Source of the DNA: Peredibacter starrii
GTDB lineage: Bacteria > Bdellovibrionota > Bacteriovoracia > Bacteriovoracales > Bacteriovoracaceae
DNA: 64,000 nucleotides
Direction: 5' to 3'
Assembly (NCBI RefSeq): GCF_034259205.1
Contig: NZ_CP139487.1
Location: forward strand, 2,046,001 to 2,110,000
This document shows positions 1,582 to 9,057 of this stretch, piece by piece. The position numbers were made by a program, and so were the translations under genes. A model generated the notes under the pieces. That model did not search any database, had not been told where the DNA came from, and was given only the letters and a program-made list of their open reading frames with translations. Position 1 is the first letter of the stretch; each line of letters opens with the position of its first letter.

Positions 1582-2914
1582 TTTCTTCTCTTGGCTTATC
1601 ACCCCAAGCTTTGTTCTTACTAAAGCTTCTGAATAAGGCGATCAGTCTCCACCAAGAAGTCAGCTGCTTATAACCTAAATGCAAAAACAGCGTTTCAATC
1701 GTGCTTTGAGTACAAGACCAGTACTTCTTTTTAGAGACGTACTTGTTATCGAAGTAAACCCCGATCAATGTAATGATTAAGTTAAAGAATAATCCGATCC
1801 CGAGATACATGAAGACCGTTTCTAGTGACACCCAGTTTTGATAAAGAGCATAGGGAATAAGCACAAGTCCTAAAGCTTCAACTACGGGAGAGAGGACTTC
1901 CACAAACCAAAAGTATGGAATGGCAAATAGTCCTAGTGGGCCATGATTTGGATTAAAGAACAGCGAAATATTCTCAGATAGAGTCTGAACTAGTCCCATC
2001 TGCCAGCGCATACGCTGAATGCTTAAGTGCTTAATCGTTCTTGGAACCTGAGTGTAACAAGTTGTGATGGGAAGAATCTTAAAGTGATGGTTCTCACCTT
2101 GGTAAGCACGACGTAGACGCACGATCAGATCAAAGTCTTCAGTGATTGAACGGTGATTGAATCCACCAATTTTTCTCACGGCCTCTTTCTTAAGCATACA
2201 GAAGGCACCTGAGATCAGAAGTGTTGACCCAAGGAAGCTCCAGCCCAATCTCTCGCACACAAAAGCGCGAAGATATTCAATTCGTTGAAATGAAGTGAGC
2301 CACTCTTTTGAGCGAGCTTCAAGAGGTGAGTTGTCTTTTAGAACTTGCGAGTTAAGGACCTGAATCACTCCACCTACGGCAACGAGTTTTGAGTCCGTCG
2401 CAAAAGAGCGAAGACAGGCCTCAACTCCGCGAGCAGTTGGAATTGTGTCCGCATCCATTGTACAAATGAGATCATAAGTCGCATGTGTCACACCATAATT
2501 CAGGGCCTGGGCCTTACCCATGTGAGGGGCCTCAAGTACAATCAGTTCAGGTTGTGTGATGGATTTAAAAATTCGATCTTGTACTTTTTGAAGTTGAAAC
2601 ATCGTTTGCAGAAGCTTCATGGTCTGATCATGAGAGCCATCGTTAATGACGATGATCTCTTTCTTCGCTTGAGGCAGAGAAAGATAGGTCTGGATCGTTT
2701 CAACGATCAAGGACTCCTCATTGAAGGCCGGAATGATGAAACTCACCGCGGGAAGATCTTTTACCGTCTCATCTTTAAGACGGGTGCGATAGCGCTTGAT
2801 TTTCATCCATGAAAGAAGCATCAGTACCGCATACACGACATTGATACACAAAAAATAAACGGCAGAGGCCTTTAAAAGAAGAAGGCAAATTTCCTGTACC
2901 ATTAAATCACCCAT
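1562..2914 (-). CDS. Processive family 2 glycosyltransferase (PgaC-like polysaccharide synthase)
   Basis: This membrane GT2 enzyme should polymerise a nucleotide-sugar into an exported polysaccharide, in the manner of PgaC (poly-N-acetylglucosamine), hyaluronan or cellulose synthases. An N-terminal membrane helix (about 9-37) precedes the GT2 domain with DGS (92-94), DAD (154-156), the acceptor-binding TED (258-260) and the processivity motif QRMRW (300-304); further helices lie at about 325-395. The exact sugar cannot be told from sequence. Its start overlaps the end of the upstream YaiO-like gene by 13 bases, so both are translated from one message. A PilZ gene lies divergently next to them. 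No deacetylase or export porin with TPRs is nearby. Confidence 0.85.
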   Translation of the reverse strand: MGDLMVQEICLLLLKASAVYFLCINVVYAVLMLLSWMKIKRYRTRLKDETVKDLPAVSFIIPAFNEESLIVETIQTYLSLPQAKKEIIVINDGSHDQTMKLLQTMFQLQKVQDRIFKSITQPELIVLEAPHMGKAQALNYGVTHATYDLICTMDADTIPTARGVEACLRSFATDSKLVAVGGVIQVLNSQVLKDNSPLEARSKEWLTSFQRIEYLRAFVCERLGWSFLGSTLLISGAFCMLKKEAVRKIGGFNHRSITEDFDLIVRLRRAYQGENHHFKILPITTCYTQVPRTIKHLSIQRMRWQMGLVQTLSENISLFFNPNHGPLGLFAIPYFWFVEVLSPVVEALGLVLIPYALYQNWVSLETVFMYLGIGLFFNLIITLIGVYFDNKYVSKKKYWSCTQSTIETLFLHLGYKQLTSWWRLIALFRSFSKNKAWGDKPREEIIHQTL

Positions 2915-3660
2915 ACTAGGTTAAGTGTTGTTGTCATAAATTGATTTTTTAGTTCTTCGTAGTCAGTGTGGTCAAAGATGAGTTCTGCTTTGGTGCTCGG
3001 AGTGAAGTTATAACCCGCGCCTCCACCGAAAGTTGTGGTGTCTACCAGAATGCTGGATTTACCGATGATTCCTTGTGAGGCCTCTTTGCCTTTGTATCCG
3101 AAAGCGAAAAGGGAGTAATTACTTTCTTCGTAATAAACTGCACGAAGTCCTACACTATAAACACCCTTGGTTTCATTGGGAGCTTTAAAGGTTGCATTTC
3201 CAAGAAGGACTTGCGGGATCAGGATAATGTTTCTGATTTTTTCGATCTCAAGGCCCAGTTGGTAAGTATCAATATCTGTCACAGAGTAAGCAGCATGACG
3301 ATAGATGAAGTAAGGGGAGTAGCCCGGTGCAAGTGCATAGTAAGCAGCGAGATAACCGTCTTTTTCGGCGAGGATGTCATTTCCCATGCCTTGAAGGTAA
3401 CGGGCCTCAACAGTTAAAGTATCAGTCGGACGGTACTGAACTGAACCACCAGCGCGCTTTTCATAAAGATCAAAACGCTCGAGGTATGTTCCCTGAAGAC
3501 CCACTTTCCATTTGCGATTCAGATCCACTCTTCCAATTAAGTCCTCCTGAATCCCTCGGCCACCGGCTTTACCAAGATCTACATATTGAGAAACGAGCTG
3601 AACATCATGAGCAGAGGCCAAAAATGGGAGACAAAGTAACAAGAGAGCGAGTCGAAGCAC
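2902..3660 (-). CDS. YaiO-family outer-membrane beta-barrel protein
   Basis: The product has a signal peptide (cleavage near ASA-HD) followed by about 230 residues of alternating amphipathic strands, and resembles the YaiO outer-membrane barrel family, commonly found beside GT2 polysaccharide synthases. It probably forms the outer-membrane part of polysaccharide export or binds the polymer at the surface. Translation starts at GTG 3660 with AAAGGAT upstream; no better ATG exists before the signal peptide. It is the first gene of a two-gene unit with the synthase, overlapping it by 13 bases. The family match is by overall pattern rather than a catalytic motif, so function is inferred. Confidence 0.75.
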   Translation of the reverse strand: MLRLALLLLCLPFLASAHDVQLVSQYVDLGKAGGRGIQEDLIGRVDLNRKWKVGLQGTYLERFDLYEKRAGGSVQYRPTDTLTVEARYLQGMGNDILAEKDGYLAAYYALAPGYSPYFIYRHAAYSVTDIDTYQLGLEIEKIRNIILIPQVLLGNATFKAPNETKGVYSVGLRAVYYEESNYSLFAFGYKGKEASQGIIGKSSILVDTTTFGGGAGYNFTPSTKAELIFDHTDYEELKNQFMTTTLNLVWVI

Positions 3661-3708: not shown

Positions 3709-3737
3709 TTTCTTAAACAATAAGGCAACCAACTTAA

Positions 3738-4553
3738 ATGAGAGTAATTAAGTCGGATTCTGGACACCTGGCGTACCAGAAAATTTTCAAACATTTACTG
3801 AAGCACCATTCGCGAATTATCGTGTGGCAGGTGCTTGATTCCGGAGAACGTGTCATCAGTGAATCACGTCTCAATTCTTTTCACCTTGATCAAGGTCTCT
3901 TGAACTTTGTCACCCCAACTGGAAAGCTCGATGAGCTTAATCCTATGTATTGTTATGCTGAAGAAGGTCAGTTGATTTTTAAGTCCGGGATTTTTGAAAT
4001 TAAAGGTCAGGTGATGACACTTAATTTACCCGGCGAAATTAAGCTTCTTGAAGATCAGGACGTAAATCTCATTCATGGCCAGATTGGCATGGATCTAAAA
4101 CCAATTTGGAAAACAAAACGCATTGATCTCGATGCTCCTGAAGAAGATGAGAGCGATGTTCTGAAAGTGAAGTCCATGGCCGAGCGTTCAAGCCGTGACC
4201 AGGAATTTTTAAATAACGAATTTGCTCTTAGTATTGATGAAGAAGAGGCGATGTATGCGGACAAGCGTGAAAGTCCTCGTGCTCGTCCTAAAAAAGAAAA
4301 ATGGGTGAAAGTCAAAGTTGATGGAAGCCCGGAAGTTCATTTCTTAAAACTTTTTGATCTGTCTCGTGGTGGAATTGCTTTTGTTGCGATGGAGATGGAA
4401 AAGTTTCCTAAGGGTAATACCATTCATGTCGTGGGCTTTGATGAGTTTGATCTTGATGATCCTCTCGTTGGAAAGATTATGTCTCATCGACCGATTGATG
4501 AAACTCAAATTGAATTTAAGGTCGGAGTGAAGTTCGATGAAGGGCAGGAGTAG
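3738..4553 (+). CDS. PilZ-domain (c-di-GMP-binding) protein
   Basis: The C-terminal third is a PilZ domain: RESPR at residues 177-181 supplies the RxxxR motif and DLSRGG at 207-212 the DxSxGG motif, which together bind cyclic di-GMP in this family. The first 110 residues form a beta-rich N-terminal domain I do not recognise, followed by an acidic linker (about 130-175). It lies divergently from the YaiO-like barrel and PgaC-like synthase, 77 bases away, which suggests that it could couple c-di-GMP level to polysaccharide production; that link is inference. No ribosome site is obvious before the ATG at 3738, although the promoter position fits this start. Confidence 0.85.
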   Translation: MRVIKSDSGHLAYQKIFKHLLKHHSRIIVWQVLDSGERVISESRLNSFHLDQGLLNFVTPTGKLDELNPMYCYAEEGQLIFKSGIFEIKGQVMTLNLPGEIKLLEDQDVNLIHGQIGMDLKPIWKTKRIDLDAPEEDESDVLKVKSMAERSSRDQEFLNNEFALSIDEEEAMYADKRESPRARPKKEKWVKVKVDGSPEVHFLKLFDLSRGGIAFVAMEMEKFPKGNTIHVVGFDEFDLDDPLVGKIMSHRPIDETQIEFKVGVKFDEGQE

Positions 4554-4580
4554 CAAACTTTTCGTTGCTCTTAATTTTTC
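4552..4580 (+). terminator. Weak intrinsic terminator after the PilZ gene
   Basis: AGCAA and TTGCT form a five-base-pair stem around an eight-base loop, followed by TTAATTTTTCTTT. The stem is short, so termination efficiency is doubtful. Confidence 0.35.
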
Positions 4581-4700
4581 TTTATCTAATGCAACTTTAT
4601 CTATCCCAAGAAAATCATTCATTTCGACCGAATTTAAGAAATCTCTTTTGAGAGTTTCTTCTTAAATCCCCGAGAATAGGTTTCGAAACAAGGGGAGTTT

Positions 4701-5171
4701 ATGAGAAAGCTTGTGACCGTCGTTCTTTTGAATGTTCTCATTGGTATAGTTAATGGCTTTGCAGGTGTACAGGAACCAGATCGTATTCGGAACGACGCTA
4801 CTTTAGCTGGTATTGATTCAGATAAAGATGGAATTAGAGATGATGTGCAAATCCTGATAGAGTATGAGTTTTCAAAAGATTCTAGAATCTTAAAAGCAGC
4901 ACGACAGAAGGCCAAATACTTGCAATTAAGCATCCTGACGGCGGAGGACAAGGATAAATCAATCCAGGTTGCCAGAAAAAGTTTAGATACTAATTCCTGT
5001 CTAGTGCATGTTGCAGGTTTAGAAGAGAGCATGAGGATTACACGATTTATTGAAAAGAAAACTTTCAATACAAAAGACAGGCTGTACGCCTATGTCAAAG
5101 CAAACGGTAACTTCAGCGGAGAAGGCTATTCGTTACCTAAAAAAGACAAAATGGCCGAACTTTGCGAATAG
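4701..5171 (+). CDS. Small secreted protein with a calcium-loop-like motif
   Basis: A signal peptide (about residues 1-22, hydrophobic VLLNVLIGIVNGFA) leads a 156-residue protein of unknown function. Residues 38-47, DSDKDGIRDD, match the DxDxDGxxD pattern of thrombospondin type 3 or EF-hand-like calcium loops. The mature part has two cysteines, one near NSCLV and one at the C-terminal ELCE, which could form a disulfide. AAGGGGAG stands seven bases before the ATG. The stop codon lies five bases from the convergent stop of the copper oxidase gene, with no terminator between them. I see nothing that ties it to a pathway. Confidence 0.7.
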   Translation: MRKLVTVVLLNVLIGIVNGFAGVQEPDRIRNDATLAGIDSDKDGIRDDVQILIEYEFSKDSRILKAARQKAKYLQLSILTAEDKDKSIQVARKSLDTNSCLVHVAGLEESMRITRFIEKKTFNTKDRLYAYVKANGNFSGEGYSLPKKDKMAELCE

Positions 5172-5176
5172 AACAT

Positions 5177-7309
5177 CTAAAAGTTATACTGTGCTCCCAC
5201 ACCCGCACTATGTTCTGTGAACATTAATCCCGCTGACCACGCCCAATTGTTCTGATACATCAAAGAAATTTCAAATTCCGATGGCTGTTTTTGTCTGAAA
5301 GTAAATTCAGCATCGGAATAAATATACTGGGTCCATTGAAATCTTCGTTCAACGTCGAGTCTCATTCTTCCCTGATTATCAATAAGTGTATGAGTCTGAA
5401 GTAAGAACGGGAGCATGTAACCCACACCTGCAACAATCGCTCCTTCGCTTTCAACTAAAGTACTACCGGCAATGAAGTTCGTGTACTTGTTGAGCCATCT
5501 TTTATAGAAGAAGTCTCCTTCACCTTTCCAACCGAAGTCACTTCTTAACTCGGTTCTGAGTTCAATTTCGTTTCGAGTGTTCATCACATTGAGTTGCGCC
5601 TGAGCATGATTGGTGGCCGCTTCTAGCATCCCTCGATAGTAGACATGATCGTGCAGATGTGGGTCATGGGCCTGGATCGCGGCAATTTCAGGTTTAGGCG
5701 TGAAGGAAGAATACTTCACTACTCGGGCCATACCTGTTTTTAAGTGATAGAGGTTGTGGCAGTGGAGCATCCATTCACCCGGCTCGTCACTATAGAACTC
5801 AATGGTCTTTTCTGAATGAGGAGCAACATCAAGGGTGTGCTTCAAAGGAGAGTTTTCTTTAAACTGATTAATCACTCGAAAGAAGTGTCCATGAAGGTGC
5901 ATCGGATGATGCATCATTGAGTTGTTCACGAAGGTAAAGCGAACCACCTCATTGGGTTTGATTTCAATGGTTCGATCCTCACTTATGGATTTTCCATTGA
6001 TGAACCAGGTGTAGCGTTCCATGTCTCCGTCTAAGACGAGTTTTACATCGTGACGAGGGAGAGATGAGGGGAACTTAGTTGAAGCTGGTGCTTCGATATC
6101 ATTTACGGTTAGAGTCTGAATGATTTTTTGATGATGATTCATTCCAGCGTGTCCTGTGTGATCCATCGTTGAATGGTCCATCTTTGAATGATCCATCGGC
6201 GCGTGGCCCATTTTCGAATGATCCATAGCACTCATGTCCATCGGTGGCTTAGTAAATGATCCAGTGTACTTGAGAGTTTCCCATGCTGTACCCATATACA
6301 TTTTCGCGTAAAGATCCGGACCTGCTTTTTTTGGGGCGGGAATTTTGTCTCCGGCACCAATCCAAAGAGAGGTTTCACCAGTTCCGTCTTGAGCACTTGC
6401 TTTCAGTTCCGTACTTTTCCCAGCAGGTACTTTGAAAAGAACATCATAAGTCTCCGCCATCCCAATCAAGAACTCATTTGCCATGGTTGGTCTTATGTCT
6501 ACTCCATCGGCCGAGATGACATGCATGGGATTATCGCCTAAAGCAACATAGAAGTAGGACGAGGCAGCAGCGTTGATGATTCTTACTCTTACTATTTCAC
6601 CTGGTTTGAAATCCGGTCGCTCTTGAACTTTCTTGCCGTTGATTAAAAAGGCATCATATCCCACGTCAGAGAGATCCATGCCACCCATTCTGGTCCATTC
6701 ATTGTAGAAAAAGTTATTTAAGGAATGAGCTTGATAAGCGCCCCAATAGGAGCGAACAGTTTTCTTCTTGAAGAGATAATACTCACCATCTTTTTTTAAG
6801 TTTTTCAAAACCTGCGAGGGATTCTCATCCGTCCAATCACTTAAAACCACCACGAGATCTTTATCATATTTGATTCTTCGCTCTTTTGGATGAATCACAA
6901 TGGCGCCATAGATACCTTTCTGTTCCTGAACATTGGTGTGCGAGTGATACCAGTAAGTGCCATGCTGTCTGACTTTAAATTTGTAAGTGAAGCTTTCACC
7001 AGGAAAAATCGGTGGCGTATTTACATAGGGGACACCATCCATATAAGGATCTAGGAGAATACCATGCCAATGGACAGAAAGTTCATCATCCTTGATTTCA
7101 TTTTTAAGAACGATTTCCGCTTCATCACCTTCGGTGAATTCGAGTGTAGGAGCGGGAATACTTCCGTTGAGCATCAAGGCAAAGCGAACGTCCTTCTTTC
7201 CACTAAGGTTGACCTTACCTTTTGTCGCAGTTAGTTCATAGCGAACGGTCTTAGCATTGACCGAAGTAGTCATGAGGGTGAGTAGTGCGAATAAAAGAAG
7301 CGACTTCAT
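5177..7309 (-). CDS. copA: CopA-type multicopper oxidase fused to a C-terminal CopB-like outer-membrane barrel
   Basis: The first 540 residues form a three-cupredoxin multicopper oxidase of the CopA copper-resistance type, which oxidises Cu(I) in the periplasm. Visible copper ligands are HWHG (80-83), HSH (122-124), HPMHLHGHFF (468-477) and HCHNLYHLKTGM (516-527), so type 1, 2 and 3 sites look complete. A Met/His-rich stretch of MDHSKM-like repeats (about 357-393) should bind extra copper. Residues 555-710 are an added CopB-like barrel domain with alternating aromatic strands and a terminal phenylalanine typical of outer-membrane proteins. CopA is normally separate and near 600 residues. In-frame starts exist at 7360 and 7321; the ATG at 7309 directly precedes the signal peptide and has GGAA upstream. 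Confidence 0.88.
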   Translation of the reverse strand: MKSLLLFALLTLMTTSVNAKTVRYELTATKGKVNLSGKKDVRFALMLNGSIPAPTLEFTEGDEAEIVLKNEIKDDELSVHWHGILLDPYMDGVPYVNTPPIFPGESFTYKFKVRQHGTYWYHSHTNVQEQKGIYGAIVIHPKERRIKYDKDLVVVLSDWTDENPSQVLKNLKKDGEYYLFKKKTVRSYWGAYQAHSLNNFFYNEWTRMGGMDLSDVGYDAFLINGKKVQERPDFKPGEIVRVRIINAAASSYFYVALGDNPMHVISADGVDIRPTMANEFLIGMAETYDVLFKVPAGKSTELKASAQDGTGETSLWIGAGDKIPAPKKAGPDLYAKMYMGTAWETLKYTGSFTKPPMDMSAMDHSKMGHAPMDHSKMDHSTMDHTGHAGMNHHQKIIQTLTVNDIEAPASTKFPSSLPRHDVKLVLDGDMERYTWFINGKSISEDRTIEIKPNEVVRFTFVNNSMMHHPMHLHGHFFRVINQFKENSPLKHTLDVAPHSEKTIEFYSDEPGEWMLHCHNLYHLKTGMARVVKYSSFTPKPEIAAIQAHDPHLHDHVYYRGMLEAATNHAQAQLNVMNTRNEIELRTELRSDFGWKGEGDFFYKRWLNKYTNFIAGSTLVESEGAIVAGVGYMLPFLLQTHTLIDNQGRMRLDVERRFQWTQYIYSDAEFTFRQKQPSEFEISLMYQNNWAWSAGLMFTEHSAGVGAQYNF

Positions 7310-7429
7310 TTGAATTTCCATACAAGATGCAAGACGAATGATCTTCGTTCTTTGTGACAATTGAAGTTTCTATGAGATGAGTTGTGCTAAGACAAGTTAC
7401 GGTCGGCCAGAATAGGGAAGGCGATGCAG

Positions 7430-7454
7430 AAAAAAGGGCAGGAGTAACCTGCCC
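7430..7454 (-). terminator. Intrinsic terminator of the 7468 gene
   Basis: On the minus strand GGGCAGG and CCTGCCC form a perfect seven-base-pair stem with a five-base loop, followed by six thymines. It lies just after the stop codon of the small secreted-protein gene and separates it from the oxidase gene. Confidence 0.9.
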
Positions 7455-7467
7455 TTCGCTTTATGAA

Positions 7468-7935
7468 TTAGAATTCGTATTCGTAATAGAAAGTGTTCTC
7501 GTAATTTGTGTCACCTTTCTTAATGAGCTTACTGTGTTTTTTAAGCTCTTTTGACATCACTTTTAGTTTCTTCTCCAGCTTTCCAATGTCCACATATTCA
7601 GCCTCTTTACCTTGCTTACAAATGAGTGACTGACGGTGCACAAAAATTAGATGCTCAAGGGCCTGGTTCTTGGCGGCAACATTCTTACTATTAAAAAGAT
7701 CCATATGAGAGCCGATGGCCTTCAAGTGTTCAGGATAGATTTCAAAGAGCTCTTGGATTTTCCCGCAGGCACCAACCACATCTTCTTTTTCAAGAAGAGT
7801 GCGGGACGATTCTACTTTTTCAATTAAGGTGTCGACTCGACTAAGCATCTCTTCTTTGATTTTCTTTTCACGCTTGGTCTGAGCAAAGGACATTTGACCC
7901 GCTAAAAGCAGCACCAACATAAGGCCAAACTTCAT
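7468..7935 (-). CDS. Small secreted protein of unknown function
   Basis: A clear signal peptide (MKFGLMLVLLLAGQMSFAQ, cleavage near SFA-QT) leads a 155-residue, strongly charged and mostly helical protein. The mature part is rich in lysine and glutamate with heptad-like spacing, contains two cysteines (GACGK and LICKQ) and ends in an aromatic-acidic tail (FYYEYEF). GGGAGG precedes the ATG by about six bases. It appears monocistronic: its own terminator follows, and the upstream SrkA gene ends 87 bases away. I recognise no family. Confidence 0.75.
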   Translation of the reverse strand: MKFGLMLVLLLAGQMSFAQTKREKKIKEEMLSRVDTLIEKVESSRTLLEKEDVVGACGKIQELFEIYPEHLKAIGSHMDLFNSKNVAAKNQALEHLIFVHRQSLICKQGKEAEYVDIGKLEKKLKVMSKELKKHSKLIKKGDTNYENTFYYEYEF

Positions 7936-8022
7936 AACAACCTCCCATAAATCGACAACCGTCTAAACTTTTGACATCCATTTAGGGTCAAAAGCGGCAG
8001 AAATCGTGATTATGAGAGAAGA

Positions 8023-9057
8023 TTATTCAAAGCCCATGCCAAGGCGGTCTTGAATGAGACCCATCTGAACTCTAAGGTCGATGAGCTCTTGGTCCCAGTA
8101 ATTGGCACTTGTAAATTGAGGGAATACACGTTTGAAAGAATGATCGTCCCAGCGCTTAGCAATCCAGGCGTTGAAGTGAACCATACGCATGGTACGTAGG
8201 GCCTCAGTAAGACCCAGGTTTACATGATCTTTTCTCGTCATCTCTTTATAAGCAGAAATAAAACGATCACGGTCTTCCAAGCTGTAGCTATCCTTCCCAG
8301 GAAACAGTAACCACAAATCTTGTTCCACCGGTCCACTTAGGCAGTCATCGAAATCCACCGCCATAGGTCCAGCGGAAGTCCATACGATATTGCCTCGGTG
8401 AAAATCACCGTGAAGTCTTTGAATTGTGAGATGTGTAAACATAGGAGCCAGCATCGGAGAGAGCTGTTCTAGAAGTTTTAAGTAATGCTGAAAACTCACG
8501 TGCTCAACGGGTTGAGTTTGGGCCAGGGCCTCACGGTTAATATCAATAAAAGTGTGAGGATTAAGTGCCAGACGATGAGCAAAAGTTCCCATCGAACCAA
8601 TATTATGAATTCGCCCAATCAAGCGACCTGCTTGATCGATCTCATCTTTAATGAGTTCATCTTTTAAGCGGCCTTGCACCTTGGGAAAGAGCGCGAACCA
8701 AAGGTTCGTTTCCGTATGAAGGTGAAGGGTATTGTCGTTAAACTCAATCGGCGCCACCACTGGTACTTCAAATTCTGTCAGAGTCGTTAGAAAGCGGTGC
8801 TCCTCCAGAATCTGTTCTTTGGTCCAACGACCAGGTCGATAAAATTTAAGAATGATATTTGTCGGGCTGAAGCCCTTACCAAAATCAAAACTAGAAGCGA
8901 GTTCCACATCATAAACGCGGTTCTCTAAACTATTGAGGGCCATGACTCGCCCTGAGAGACGTTTCCCCCAAAGCTCGGCCGCTTCCATAACGTGATCCGG
9001 AGTGAGGAGATGAAAGTGTTTGGTCTCTGCTCCCCAGATCCCTTGATTTTGACTCAT
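8023..9057 (-). CDS. srkA: Stress response Ser/Thr kinase SrkA (YihE/RdoA family)
   Basis: SrkA-type kinases are small cytoplasmic Ser/Thr kinases of the aminoglycoside-phosphotransferase fold that protect cells under envelope or oxidative stress. The catalytic HGDFHRGN sits near residue 215 and the metal-binding VDFDD follows about 20 residues later; both are intact. The N-terminal WGAETKHFHLLTPD region and the tail resemble E. coli SrkA, and 344 residues is close to the family size. It is the last gene of the operon that begins with the ROK kinase, separated by 12 bases from the phosphatase-like gene. No DsbA gene, its common partner in enterobacteria, follows. Confidence 0.88.
   Translation of the reverse strand: MSQNQGIWGAETKHFHLLTPDHVMEAAELWGKRLSGRVMALNSLENRVYDVELASSFDFGKGFSPTNIILKFYRPGRWTKEQILEEHRFLTTLTEFEVPVVAPIEFNDNTLHLHTETNLWFALFPKVQGRLKDELIKDEIDQAGRLIGRIHNIGSMGTFAHRLALNPHTFIDINREALAQTQPVEHVSFQHYLKLLEQLSPMLAPMFTHLTIQRLHGDFHRGNIVWTSAGPMAVDFDDCLSGPVEQDLWLLFPGKDSYSLEDRDRFISAYKEMTRKDHVNLGLTEALRTMRMVHFNAWIAKRWDDHSFKRVFPQFTSANYWDQELIDLRVQMGLIQDRLGMGFE

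Follow-up and report, generated by a model that had tools for sequence, protein, structure and literature searches.

A multicopper oxidase continued by a predicted CopB-like outer-membrane barrel in a single chain in Peredibacter starrii and its relatives

Results

One reading frame encodes a CopA-like oxidase and a C-terminal tail

The window analysed here, a 64,000 nucleotide stretch of Peredibacter starrii DNA (NZ_CP139487.1, positions 2,046,001 to 2,110,000), contains a minus-strand gene at 5177-7309 for a fused multicopper oxidase and predicted outer-membrane barrel of the CopA-CopB type. The gene is a single unbroken frame with its ATG at 7309 and its stop codon at 5177-5179, and encodes 710 amino acids, the sole Cu-oxidase_3 protein of the genome. 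In 42 of 44 loci from other named genomes the frame likewise runs open across oxidase and tail (the other two being a frameshifted copy and a fragment), so the fusion is not an accident of sequencing or assembly, confirming that the two parts are joined in one chain. Automatic annotation of the fused genes reads "multicopper oxidase domain-containing protein", and the channel is overlooked. Elsewhere in the window, a gene at 2902-3660 (minus strand) for another barrel-like secreted protein of approximately 252 amino acids, with no Pfam match, overlaps the start of a family 2 glycosyltransferase gene (1562-2914).

The mature oxidase occupies residues 20-535 (5705-7252, minus strand). Multicopper oxidase profiles PF07732, PF00394 and PF07731 matched over residues 30-533 (Cu-oxidase_3, 30-143; Cu-oxidase, 152-294; Cu-oxidase_2, 421-533), and no significant Pfam match was found in the protein after residue 533. 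The best NCBIfam model was TIGR01480 (CopA oxidase) at 366 bits, under its curated cut-off of 478.95 bits. The protein has the three Cu-oxidase domains and four copper-binding motifs by which CopA/PcoA is recognised, the motifs being HWHG, HSH, HPMHLHGH and HCHNLYHLKTGM, and all 12 ligands of the type 1, 2 and 3 copper sites are present (H80, H82, H122, H124, H468, H471, H473, H516, C517, H518, H522 and M527) and invariant across 38 aligned full-length sequences. The original prediction of a complete CopA-like oxidase with every copper ligand in place is thus strongly supported by domains and ligands.

The fused proteins have a Sec-type signal

Read from the sequence, residues 1-19 (MKSLLLFALLTLMTTSVNA; 7253-7309, minus strand) form a putative Sec-type signal peptide with no twin-arginine motif, the latter being a usual but not universal trait of CopA/PcoA. 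An RR motif was absent from the first 45 residues of all 51 fused proteins (that of the window and 50 others), whereas it was found near the start of 10 of 11 sampled CopA proteins encoded separately from CopB (split CopA). The same difference is seen within one genome, G034, where the split CopA starts with a twin-arginine signal (MNRRRFLKQAG) and the fused protein with a Sec-type signal (MKRYIAFLLLSVCLQAWA). The one exception among the split proteins, from Acinetobacter (L152:1441-3354), also lacks a twin-arginine signal, so the loss of Tat export is not confined to fusions. Outer-membrane barrels must arrive unfolded for the BAM machinery, and Sec passes unfolded chains. Because of this need for an unfolded barrel, we infer that the fused protein uses Sec instead of Tat, in which case its oxidase would be loaded with copper in the periplasm.

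The Met/His-rich stretch lies within the oxidase and a conserved linker precedes the tail

A Met/His-rich region had been taken as the linker between oxidase and barrel. The MDHSKM repeats that make up this region (residues 357-395; 6125-6241, minus strand) instead sit within the oxidase, before the third cupredoxin domain, in the only disordered part of the full-length AlphaFold2 model (pLDDT below 50 at residues 340-392). Split CopA carries a similar Met/His-rich stretch at the equivalent place in the oxidase, and the repeats are therefore not the tether. The true linker (residues 536-556; 5642-5704, minus strand) contains one short helix, which precedes the barrel strands in the AlphaFold2 models, and a conserved DPHLHDHxY motif in which D549 and the adjoining Y557 are invariant and P550, H551 and H555 are at least 90% conserved. 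This motif occupies the place where CopB/PcoB has a His-containing disordered region, and we propose that it would hand copper over. Caulobacter needs the disordered region of PcoB to resist copper, and the same region stabilises PcoA (PMC12509749).

The tail is predicted to form a 12-stranded outer-membrane barrel

The remainder of the protein (residues 557-710; 5180-5641, minus strand) is predicted to be a 12-stranded outer-membrane beta-barrel of the CopB/PcoB type with an acid-rich lumen. The tail is conserved, with a mean column identity of 57% over 43 sequences, and is amphipathic beyond chance, its in/out hydropathy difference of 3.34 being above that of all 5000 shuffles; its last residue is phenylalanine (F710), so that amphipathic C-terminal strands ending in Phe, as first described, are borne out. 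An AlphaFold2 model of the tail built from the 43-sequence alignment contained exactly 12 beta-strands (mean pLDDT 87.4), which the full-length model reproduced. The chain beyond residue 535 is not noise, nor is it a further soluble domain. At predicted lumen positions there are 14 acidic and 8 basic residues and several Met/His, near-invariant residues predicted to face the lumen include E587, E597, D599, R650 and R672, and conservation is slightly higher at predicted lumen-facing than at lipid-facing positions (0.71 vs 0.65). Weak Pfam matches on the tail (BsuPI, DUF2653 and similar) were below cut-off and were taken as chance.

Foldseek comparison of the tail model with the PDB ranked E. 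coli PcoB (7PGE) first (E 1.2e-5), and VIA-align superimposed the two over 154 residues with a Z score of 14.9 and an rmsd of 3.0 Å. Other 12-stranded barrels scored close to PcoB (VhGalP, Z 14.3; OmpLA, 13.6), so fold alone leaves the family open, and sequence was therefore tested. A search of PDB sequences with the tail profile gave no match.

Sequence profiles link the tail to CopB

The Pfam CopB profile, PF05275, matched neither the window protein nor anything else in its genome. The description of the tail as CopB-like is thus upheld by fold, family profiles and relatives, on which the link to CopB rests, but not by PF05275 on the protein itself. Among relatives, PF05275 weakly matched 4 of 20 diverse tails (best E value 4.1e-4), matched the fused proteins of two other Bdellovibrionota genomes (6.5e-5 and 1.2e-3), and gave E values from 6.5e-5 to 0.04 over distant fused relatives. 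Profile-profile comparison (hhalign) of the diverse tails with seven true CopB proteins gave an E value of 2e-6 and a probability of 89.5%, compared with E values of 0.03 for a reversed CopB profile and 0.05-0.4 for six column-shuffled controls; this result required the more diverse alignment, as an alignment of tails from close relatives alone gave a probability of 19%. When an HMM of the tail family was searched against all translated loci, the best matches outside the fused family were true-CopB loci (7.7e-10 and 5.2e-4). The opposite search, in which the CopB profile was run on the tails, does not separate fused tails from other barrels and was left out of the evidence. These profile comparisons argue strongly, if not finally, for shared descent of tail and CopB, and we conclude that the tail is probably a CopB barrel that has diverged and become shorter.

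The fusion is a conserved family with scattered remnants

The tail is present in 51 of 291 Bdellovibrionota genomes (about one in six). No intact free-standing tail was found in Bdellovibrionota genomes or on plasmids, intact tails always being joined to an oxidase; further isolated tail pieces were short broken fragments (G025, G142, G296). Short or frameshifted barrel remnants (G025:C46:6233-6406, G142:C16:248943-249159, L106 and L107) suggest repeated decay of the fused gene in some lineages. On plasmids, tails were found within oxidase genes of Hymenobacter, Spirosoma, Fibrella and Mucilaginibacter (Bacteroidota) and of Ilyobacter (Fusobacteriota); in one of the plasmid searches only matches inside the barrel part of the query were counted. 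The fusion is a stable, conserved family common to many predatory bacteria and to distant relatives. One metagenome-assembled genome holds two full fused copies on two contigs (L064 and L069), their tails 80% and 75% identical to that of the window. In the Bdellovibrionota genome G034 (contig 12, ~3710-8610; L013/L026/L109), a fused CopAB gene and a split copA-copB pair, its CopA of the Tat type, are immediate neighbours, showing that one genome can hold both architectures.

In a tree built from the oxidase region, one branch with support of 100/99 divided 26 fused from 11 split proteins, the split set being small and mostly plasmid-borne and the Legionella sequence sitting on a long branch. 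This single, strongly supported separation fits one old fusion, and for the sampled proteins the tree is consistent with one such event; with this sampling, the fusion may also have arisen more than once.

Copper genes neighbour the fused gene in many relatives

Clustering of neighbouring genes placed a P-type ATPase near the fused gene in 26 of 42 loci and a MerR-type regulator in 18 of 42. The ATPase neighbours that were checked exceeded the cut-offs for heavy-metal and copper-translocating ATPases, and the checked MerR-type neighbours that for CueR (TIGR02044, 169.3 vs 147.4 bits). The ATPase gene directly adjoins the fused gene in L064, the closest relative (81% identity). The presence of copper ATPases and CueR as neighbours supports a copper function. 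The window gene is flanked by genes for a PilZ protein, a family 2 glycosyltransferase, a phosphotransferase-like protein and unknowns, with no adjoining copper genes; the ATPase and CueR genes retained beside the fused gene in many relatives have been lost here. No CueR-type promoter was found upstream of it by eye or by a sigma-70 scan. The copper-type ATPase of the same genome (L144) lies approximately 1.1 Mb from the fused gene and is followed by a TetR-like regulator. In Bacteroidota and Legionella, a gene for a four-helix-bundle copper-binding protein recurs near the fused gene (L146, L147, L157, L062, L151).

Discussion

CopA and CopB are normally encoded separately, and the original prediction was right on this as a rule, with a fused PcoA-PcoB already reported in five Legionella species in 2012 (BMC Microbiol. 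2012, 12:249; PMC3548706), so this kind of fusion is known. The Legionella fusion resembles that of the window in that a single chain with a Sec-type signal combines the oxidase with a CopB barrel. The two differ in the barrel, which in the 1108-amino acid protein of a Legionella adelaidensis plasmid (L151:3749-7075) is a clear match to PF05275 (1.3e-25, above the Pfam cut-off) and in the window's branch is shorter and diverged. Within the L. adelaidensis oxidase there is also a Met/His/Ser-rich insert, several hundred residues long and far exceeding that of any other member seen, and the Legionella oxidase falls on a long branch, while the conserved DPHLHDH linker is a feature of the branch to which the window protein belongs. 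Searches of the open-access literature turned up no account of the fusion branch in Bdellovibrionota or Bacteroidota, which therefore appears to be undescribed, as do its diverged barrel, its linker and its wide distribution.

The PcoA-PcoB and CopA-CopB operons of E. coli, Pseudomonas, Caulobacter and Acinetobacter have the same parts, adjoining and in the same order, but encode two proteins rather than one chain; their CopA is usually exported with a twin-arginine signal, unlike the window protein, and their CopB is exported alone, with a disordered His/Met N-terminal region. In its crystal structure (7PGE), PcoB forms a barrel of 12 strands whose two termini lie on the periplasmic side and whose pore is strongly electronegative (PMC9210255). 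The predicted window barrel shares its strand number and acid-rich pore, although identity in the structural alignment is only ~10% and a 198-residue chain is compared with a barrel of ~154 residues.

The protein is most likely a CopAB machine anchored in the outer membrane and exported by Sec, not Tat, and taken as a whole the data are probably best explained by CopA and CopB in one chain, with a tethered oxidase feeding copper to the barrel. The chain would pass the inner membrane unfolded via Sec, rather than folded via Tat like classical CopA/PcoA, and the barrel would insert into the outer membrane with both ends periplasmic, which would tether the oxidase at its periplasmic mouth. The oxidase, for which the Met/His repeats may recruit or buffer copper, would convert to Cu(II) the Cu(I) that a P1B ATPase brings into the periplasm, and the DPHLHDH linker would pass Cu(II) to the acidic barrel. 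The barrel may then release Cu(II) from the cell or may admit it under control, a role that has been proposed for E. coli PcoB; for PcoB itself, published work disagrees on export versus import (PMC12509749, PMC9210255). The fusion would hold both partners at 1:1. Outer-membrane tethering and copper storage, as first suggested from the sequence, would both be reasonable.

Three other explanations were considered. It is unlikely that the barrel no longer conducts copper and serves only as an anchor, the tethered oxidase being the functional part: the tail is shorter than CopB and strongly diverged from it, gives no PF05275 match and is without the long disordered N-terminal region of CopB, but a mere anchor would need neither a lumen slightly more conserved than the lipid face nor near-invariant charges within it. 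An autotransporter-like display, with the barrel carrying the oxidase to the cell surface to oxidise external copper, iron or phenols, would suit the layout of Sec signal, passenger, short helix and 12-stranded barrel ending in Phe, and some classical autotransporters are among the fold matches (EstA, BrkA and NalP, Z ~10, below PcoB); a Pfam search of the window protein gave no autotransporter match. Such display is nevertheless quite improbable, since the barrel has ~154 residues against ~245-280 for the listed isolated autotransporter domains, PcoB scores clearly higher, the sequence profile favours CopB, and the lumen has conserved charged residues and no obvious room for a passenger. Separate recruitment of an outer-membrane barrel of other descent than CopB is very doubtful, for while the tail shows little direct sequence similarity to CopB and is matched about equally well in fold by several other 12-stranded barrels, the profile-profile comparison and the HMM search both place CopB ahead of the controls, and PF05275 gives hits to distant fused relatives and to the Legionella protein.

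With the CopA-CopB chain as the preferred reading, the broader picture, offered tentatively and with the balance somewhat against it, is of a widespread and previously undescribed single-chain CopAB lineage in Bdellovibrionota, Bacteroidota and Fusobacteriota that may stem from one ancient fusion, may have switched from Tat to Sec and may transfer copper directly to the channel through its His linker. Direct docking of PcoA via the disordered region of PcoB was proposed in a 2025 study, without proof (PMC12509749); a natural 1:1 fusion argues that PcoA and PcoB work in contact. A single fused protein would let the transfer of copper from oxidase to channel be probed at one short linker, and the fusion implies a copper oxidase that would be folded and copper-loaded in the periplasm after Sec export, in contrast to the Tat-exported textbook case.
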